Shown: positions 43,813 to 45,309 of the stretch, piece by piece
Numbering within the stretch: position 1 is the first letter of the stretch
How the letters are laid out: every line of letters starts with the position of its first letter
NCBI GenBank assembly: GCA_013389115.1
Contig: JACADY010000026.1
Location: 1 to 64,000, forward strand
Direction of reading: 5' to 3'
Origin: Alphaproteobacteria bacterium
Lineage (GTDB): Bacteria; Pseudomonadota; Alphaproteobacteria; Micropepsales; Micropepsaceae
Length of the DNA stretch: 64,000 bases
Made by a program: the position numbers and the translations under genes
Notes under the pieces: generated by a model
Seen by the model: only the letters and a program-made list of their open reading frames with translations
The model's database searches: none
What the model was told of the DNA's origin: nothing

Positions 43813-44961
43813 TCAATCGATCGAGCGGCGCAAGGCAAGGAACGGCCCATCTGAATCCCATCCGGGATTATGCGCGACGATCCCGCCCCCGTTCGAGACG
43901 TGATCGATCCGCCACCCGGCCTCGACCGCCCAGTCCTCCGAAACCGGAACCTGAATGCCAGCGCCCGCCCGCGCCAATCCGTCGACCCGCGCGCCCCCAG
44001 CCGGGAAGGGATCGCTCGCCCAGAGCATCTGCACCGATCCCTCGAGGAAGAGCGAAAAATTGTCAAGTGCGAGGGGATAGAAGCGAAGCCCCGCCCCGGT
44101 GACGAGGGCCGTCGCATCGCTGTTGCGCGGCGGCTCGAAGGATAGCGGCTCGGATGTTTCGCCTTGCGCGAACATCACGCCCGCCTTGAGCTGGGCTTCG
44201 AAGCCGGACGAGAACCGCCAGGAGCGCACGGCATCCACCACGATCGCGTCGATCTGTCGGAAATCGTCGTCGAAATCGTCGGCGGGCATGAGATATTGTG
44301 TATCGAGCGTCCAGGCCTCTTCATCGATTGTGCCCAAGAGCCAGACCCGGTCGCCGCTCTCGCCCGAACTGTGCTCCTCGCCAACCGACAGGTCGCGGCG
44401 CAGAGCCAGAAACGCGCCCGATCCGTCATAGTCGGGATCATGCGCGGAATCCTCTGCACCATTGGTCACCACGCCCCAGCGCCAGCCCGTTTCGACCGCC
44501 CAATCCTCCGAGAGCCGGTATTGGAGCCCAAGCCCGGCGCGCCCATAGAAATTGGCCTTCGATCCGCCTTCTGGAAATTGCGTGACGACCGGATAGGTCG
44601 TGTGCGCCGACGCATCGAGAAAAAACTCGGCCCCACCCAGCTCGAACGCGTAATAGCGCAAGCCAAACCCCGCGCTGAAGCCATAGCTGTCGGCATCCCG
44701 CTCAGGACCGACGTACGATCCCTGCGATCCGAAAAGCCCGATACCCAGCGACGGTTCGAGGCCGCTCGAAAACCGCCATGAGCGGTTGGCATCGAGGCTG
44801 AACACGCGCACGTCGTTTTCATCGCCGCCGCTTGCGCTCAGCTCCTGCAGATCAAACGTCCAGGCTTCTCGCTCGACATCGCCCAGAAGCGGAACGCTGT
44901 CGGCGAGCGCGCAAGGCGAAAGAGCGGCCGCGAAGGCCGCAGTGAAAAACACAAGACGCAT
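43813..44961 (-). CDS. Tandem PagL-like (lipid A deacylase family) outer-membrane protein
   Basis: 382 residues with a signal peptide (MRLVFFTAAFAAALSPCALA). The mature part is two homologous beta-barrel domains: 24-189 and 207-380. Both have LLG-(x)-EAWT, SWRFSSG, GLRxYxxxL, FPxGG and SEDWAVExGWR. The second ends in DHVSNGG...NPG, matching the His-x-Ser-Asn active site of PagL-type lipid A 3-O-deacylases (His354, Ser356). In the first copy these are Val164 and Thr166, so it is probably inactive. I see no obvious catalytic Glu in either. ATG 44961 follows GGGGGG. Enzyme activity is inferred. Confidence 0.72.
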   Translation of the reverse strand: MRLVFFTAAFAAALSPCALADSVPLLGDVEREAWTFDLQELSASGGDENDVRVFSLDANRSWRFSSGLEPSLGIGLFGSQGSYVGPERDADSYGFSAGFGLRYYAFELGGAEFFLDASAHTTYPVVTQFPEGGSKANFYGRAGLGLQYRLSEDWAVETGWRWGVVTNGAEDSAHDPDYDGSGAFLALRRDLSVGEEHSSGESGDRVWLLGTIDEEAWTLDTQYLMPADDFDDDFRQIDAIVVDAVRSWRFSSGFEAQLKAGVMFAQGETSEPLSFEPPRNSDATALVTGAGLRFYPLALDNFSLFLEGSVQMLWASDPFPAGGARVDGLARAGAGIQVPVSEDWAVEAGWRIDHVSNGGGIVAHNPGWDSDGPFLALRRSID

Positions 44962-45006: not shown

Positions 45007-45309
45007 TCAGCGAGAACCGTTCGCCGCGGGCGTCGGCGGCGCCGTCGCGTCGGCCGGAACCTTGTCCAGCGCCTCGCGGCACGCGGGCGTGACATCGGCG
45101 CGATGGTCCCTGAGGCATTGCAGGATCCGCCCGCCGCCGCGCTGAACCAGCGCGCAAAGCCGCATGGCGTCAGAGCGGCAGGCCTGGCGGACGGCGGATT
45201 TGGTGGCCTCATCGACCGCGAAGGAAGTGCCGGAGGCGGCCGTCATAGCCAGGGCAATACCCAGAGCCAGCCCCGGAAGGGTCAGTGCTGCGGAACGGGC
45301 GACGGACAT
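45007..45309 (-). CDS. Secreted cysteine-rich repeat protein
   Basis: 100 residues: a signal peptide (about 1-31, ending SGTSFA) and one cysteine-rich repeat of the GLG1-like type, CRSDAMRLCALVQRGGGRILQCLRDHRADVTPACREAL, with four cysteines in the family spacing, then a Pro/Ala tail. Periplasmic by prediction; function unknown. It lies 46 bp upstream of the PagL-like gene on the same strand, so the two may be co-expressed. Confidence 0.8.
   Translation of the reverse strand: MSVARSAALTLPGLALGIALAMTAASGTSFAVDEATKSAVRQACRSDAMRLCALVQRGGGRILQCLRDHRADVTPACREALDKVPADATAPPTPAANGSR

Follow-up and report, generated by a model that had tools for sequence, protein, structure and literature searches.

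The window, by which we mean the whole 64,000-nucleotide stretch of DNA analyzed here, harbors on its minus strand a gene (43813..44961) encoding a tandem PagL-like protein of 382 amino acids plus stop. This open reading frame, read directly from the sequence, runs from an ATG at 44959-44961 to a stop codon at 43813-43815, and its codon composition is of the coding type (GC3 0.74 versus GC2 0.50) and resembles that of the neighboring genes. PagL is a lipopolysaccharide-trimming enzyme, a lipid A 3-O-deacylase. One predicted signal peptide, MRLVFFTAAFAAALSPCALA (residues 1-20; 44902..44961, minus strand, with a putative cleavage site placed from the sequence), serves the entire 382-residue protein. 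It is followed by an N-half (residues 22-205; 44347..44898, minus strand) that was delineated through Pfam, alignment of the halves, AlphaFold2 and structure search as a predicted eight-stranded PagL-like barrel without catalytic residues, and by a C-half (residues 207-382; 43816..44343, minus strand) identified as a PagL domain through Pfam and a masking test. Strand 8 of the N-half is connected to the first strand of the C-half by a hydrophilic linker of ~20 residues (44332..44391, minus strand), its limits obtained by mapping the strand ends of the model onto the sequence. The linker contains neither a stop codon nor a second signal peptide, and the possibility of two separate genes instead of one was rejected on these grounds. 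The C-terminal strand of the protein ends in FLALRRSID and lacks a terminal aromatic residue, a point that counts against the fused-barrel explanation preferred below.

Genomic context and distribution

Directly upstream, across a gap of 45 bp, an open reading frame with a Pfam match to PF00839 encodes a secreted cysteine-rich repeat protein of 100 amino acids (45007..45309, minus strand). The initial annotation had proposed this protein as a partner of the tandem protein, a suggestion that found no further backing since the product is an ordinary PF00839 protein and adjacency on the same strand with a 45-bp gap is all that connects the two; the PF00839 gene is a possible operon neighbor. The adjoining region (window:45422-48380) contains a gene for a DUF2975 membrane protein and then an HTH regulator gene, a convergent LytTR regulator gene with the ends 1 bp apart, and then an acyltransferase gene.

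On the other side, the gene order Band 7 - eipA - secF - hrpB (window:38083-43806) is conserved in other genomes of the family, with secF and eipA (and Band 7) adjoining hrpB in two of them (L117 and L120). The far side of hrpB, where readable (L115-L119), does not carry the pair formed by the tandem and PF00839 genes, and the tandem gene is thus a lineage-specific insertion or part of a fast-changing locus. In the lone sister genome of the genus, neither hrpB nor the tandem gene is present, but these absences say little because that genome is only 74% complete. LpxC is encoded in the genome, and a lipid A substrate is therefore to be expected.

Relatives of the whole protein proved elusive at every taxonomic depth sampled. 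None were found in the nearest 60 genomes, while the 96 family genomes returned chance-level matches only, the 385 class genomes weak matches only, and the 399 phylum genomes one weak match of 22.6 bits at a site also matched by PF09411. Close relatives were likewise absent from GTDB contigs, viral contigs, plasmids and phages; the genome searches yielded no ortholog that could show selection. PagL itself is patchy in the taxonomic family of the window, occurring in 9 of 96 genomes, and is more frequent in the class sample, where 84 of 190 genomes carry it. Among the matches listed for the family, class and phylum samples there was no other open frame with two PagL matches, within the limit that a sub-threshold second half could escape such a search, and the PagL frames with long open ends yielded no further fusions. 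The view that a duplicated enzyme with one pseudo-domain is unusual is consistent with this survey, as the fused, half-dead arrangement was absent elsewhere in the genomes searched.

Two homologous halves of an old duplication

The N- and C-halves align with 41% identity over 175 positions (E 8e-41), and the local alignment score between them is 321, compared to a highest value of 80 in 1000 shuffles. The motifs EAWT, SWRFSSG and SEDWAVE-x-GWR are each present in both halves, in full agreement with the original description of two homologous domains of ~170 residues that have these elements in common. Where the halves share a residue, however, they use the same codon in just 28 of 72 cases, and agreement at third codon positions is 38%, a divergence that marks the duplication as old and excludes an assembly artefact; misassembly as the source of the repeat was rejected for this reason.

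The identity between the halves is also unevenly placed, as it is found at 31 of 53 strand positions with lumen parity versus 18 of 55 with lipid parity (Fisher p 0.012), where parity was assigned with the strand limits of the N-half model and strands 1 and 8 are ambiguous. The lumen-side residues common to both halves indicate that each has kept a barrel core of its own, and on the modeled strands the same barrel interior tends to be preserved in both.

An intact and a degenerate active-site segment

The active site of the PagL family consists of a His-x-Ser pair followed by Asn, and then N-x-G with an acidic residue, the latter being Glu in P. aeruginosa PagL. Based on alignment with relatives and the masking test, the C-half contains an intact PagL-type segment, HVSNGGGIVAHNPGWDS (43852..43902, minus strand), comprising H354, S356, N357, N365-P366-G367 and D369, with H354 and S356 aligned to the His/Ser columns of the PagL relatives and Asp369 as the acidic third residue. 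The equivalent segment of the N-half, VVTNGAEDSAHDPDYDG (44422..44472, minus strand), is degenerate when aligned with the C-half and the relatives. DHVSNGG in the C-half occupies the same columns as GVVTNGA in the N-half, and all four key sites are altered, with His replaced by V164, Ser by T166, and the Asn and Gly of NPG by D175 and D177, respectively. The early observation of DHVSNGG in the second domain with Val and Thr at those positions in the first is accordingly accurate.

A census of 72 PagL relatives from family and class genomes, each with a readable segment and found with a pattern that demanded His and N-x-G, provides the frame for these differences. The His/Ser segment reads HxSN in 66 of the 72, HxSH in four, HxDN in one and HxTN in one, and N-x-G is present in all 72, while the third catalytic residue is more variable (E in 45, D in 11, N in 9, T in 5 and S in 2). 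The single extracted frame that failed the pattern (L048) had been read on the wrong strand. Of the relatives with variant sites, L071 bears HVDN, preceded by a long proline-rich extension at the N terminus, and L080 bears HLTN.

In Salmonella PagL, H163 and S165 are reported to be essential, and the inactive control was a variant altered at both residues (PMC4958258). The degenerate loop of the N-half retains N, G, AH, P and D and is equal in length to the intact loop of the C-half, remnants that point to decay from an active ancestor; on this sequence comparison, loss of the active site in the N-half appears likelier than its gain in the C-half. When mapped onto the strands of the N-half model, the His/Ser columns fall at the end of strand 7 with lipid-facing parity, a position in keeping with where the PagL active site lies.

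Family assignment of the halves

Against PF09411, the C-half scores 33.0 bits (E 7.8e-8), above the gathering cut-off of 23, whereas the N-half reaches 15.9 bits, under the cut-off, and matches PF13505 and PagL equally well. The PagL profile suggested for searching each half thus recovered the second and missed the first. The match of the C-half is itself strongly localized, as masking only its His and Ser reduced the PF09411 score to 16.9 bits and masking 17 active-site residues left no Pfam match whatsoever. From these masking results, the PagL assignment of the C-half can be regarded as good but motif-dependent, with nearly all of the signal contributed by the active-site segment, which aligns, at close to the spacing of the family, over ~20 residues from the end of strand 7 to the start of strand 8. 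OmpA-type proteins (L074, L075, L076 and L077) score 20-24 bits against PF09411, a cross-match near the cut-off, and weak matches to this profile consequently mean little. The family assignment of the N-half derives from its likeness to the C-half and from its modeled fold.

Predicted fold and arrangement of the barrels

AlphaFold2 predicted eight strands for the N-half (mean pLDDT 79.6, pTM 0.73) from an alignment composed of the C-half and 65 PagL-family sequences. The best TM-score of this model among the listed PDB hits was to PagL (2erv; 0.76 by target length, rmsd 3.5), a likeness that is partly circular given the PagL sequences in the alignment, and several OmpA-, OmpW- and OmpX-type barrels gave lower E-values than 2erv. 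A structure search against viral proteins returned generic barrels only. An eight-stranded PagL-like barrel with a lost active site is nonetheless a supported model for the N-half, and the C-half, at 41% identity to the modeled N-half, probably forms an eight-stranded barrel as well. The proposed tandem of PagL-like barrels with one site lost stands in different ways for its two parts, the C-half through Pfam and its His/Ser pair and the barrel of the N-half through the model.

The arrangement of the halves is unreadable from the full-length model, which AlphaFold2 built without relatives and with a pLDDT of 32.6. A full-protein alignment with PagL proteins split single-domain sequences across the halves and was left out of folding. 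However, each half is long enough for eight strands, and the ~20-residue hydrophilic linker between them far exceeds the usual length of a periplasmic turn. The linker favors an arrangement, built on the modeled strands, in which two barrels are contained in one chain.

A proposed fused barrel pair and competing explanations

Taken together, we consider it somewhat more probable than its negation that the gene encodes a fused PagL-type barrel pair in which a C-half deacylase is joined to a non-catalytic N-half partner. One signal peptide would export the fused pair of eight-stranded outer-membrane barrels, which a periplasmic linker of ~20 residues would join as what are probably two separate barrels. 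The C-terminal barrel would act as a lipid A 3-O-deacylase by the His-x-Ser mechanism of PagL, with Asp instead of the customary Glu as its acid, an activity predicted from its residues. The N-terminal barrel would be a duplicated copy that decayed at its active site and retained its barrel core, most likely now a permanently attached non-catalytic partner that may position either the enzyme or lipid A within the outer leaflet. Salmonella PagL is latent, and its extracellular loops are needed to recognize modified lipid A (PMC3486919), features that by analogy make it plausible that a companion barrel could serve to regulate or position. A bolder proposal, which we put forward only tentatively and as rather doubtful, is that the protein is a naturally occurring lipid A deacylase with two barrels, whose dead PagL copy, permanently fused, controls or enables the live one as a built-in pseudoenzyme regulator.

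The loss of the active site at several positions could also mean that the N-half is a passenger, a degenerate copy that has no role of its own and is kept only as the carrier of a signal peptide for an active C-half. Since the C-half lacks its own signal peptide, the N-half could not just be dropped, which fits this explanation; in contrast, the duplication is old (third-position identity 0.38), yet the reading frame is still open and the lumen core conserved, which suggests selection on the fold, and we judge a roleless N-half to be unlikely. The dependence of the C-half on its active-site segment, without which no Pfam match is left, raises the question of whether the protein is a generic OmpA/OmpX-like tandem with a structural or adhesive function in the outer membrane, its C-half His-x-Ser-Asn being coincidental or non-catalytic. 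The equally good fit of the N-half to PF13505 and the PF09411 scores of OmpA-type proteins are in line with such a protein. Yet the ~20-residue segment occupies the correct place with near-family spacing, the complete match is highly significant, and the best TM-score of the N-half is to PagL, all of which render a generic tandem less likely still.

Least probable of the explanations weighed here is that the halves open and join as a single 16-stranded barrel, a pore, as has been proposed for artificial OmpX duplications. According to the account given in PMC6340704, a duplicated eight-stranded OmpX gave a functional pore (Arnold et al. 2007), and the low confidence of the full-length model is compatible with either architecture. 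Three features nevertheless speak against a single large barrel, namely the hydrophilic linker, far longer than ordinary periplasmic turns, the conservation of lumen-side residues between the halves, as expected for two small closed barrels, and the closure of the N-half with eight strands in its model, although it was modeled alone.

Comparison with known systems

Current views hold that outer-membrane barrels expanded through duplication, yet to our knowledge there are few descriptions of natural proteins that join two complete small barrels and have one dead active site. If it proves real, the fused barrel pair would offer a test case for the folding of a duplicated barrel, as two barrels or as one with 16 strands, and for a pseudoenzyme barrel that regulates a lipid A-modifying enzyme. 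The resemblance to PagL (PF09411; P. aeruginosa 2erv; Salmonella PagL) lies in the His-x-Ser-Asn and N-x-G segment of the C-half, found in the same place, and in the eight-stranded fold of the N-half model. In contrast, the sampled PagL frames are single-domain and mostly ~170-220 amino acids long, whereas the window protein comprises two fused copies, one of them apparently catalytically dead, and its C-half bears Asp where the acid of PagL is Glu.

The window protein would resemble the multi-barrel outer-membrane proteins (Solan et al. 2021, PNAS, as cited in PMC8592465) in that its single chain probably comprises two barrel domains. The artificial OmpX duplication, as it is cited in PMC6340704 (Arnold et al. 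2007), likewise places copies of an eight-stranded barrel head to tail in one reading frame, but is a non-enzymatic laboratory construct, whereas the window protein is natural, diverged and has kept one active site. A natural counterpart from the same class (L131:775-1814; G235:C1) consists of two neighboring PagL copies on the same strand with 8 bp between them. These are two separate genes with both sites intact (HISNA, NPG), unlike the fused window protein, and such a pair is a plausible precursor of the fusion.
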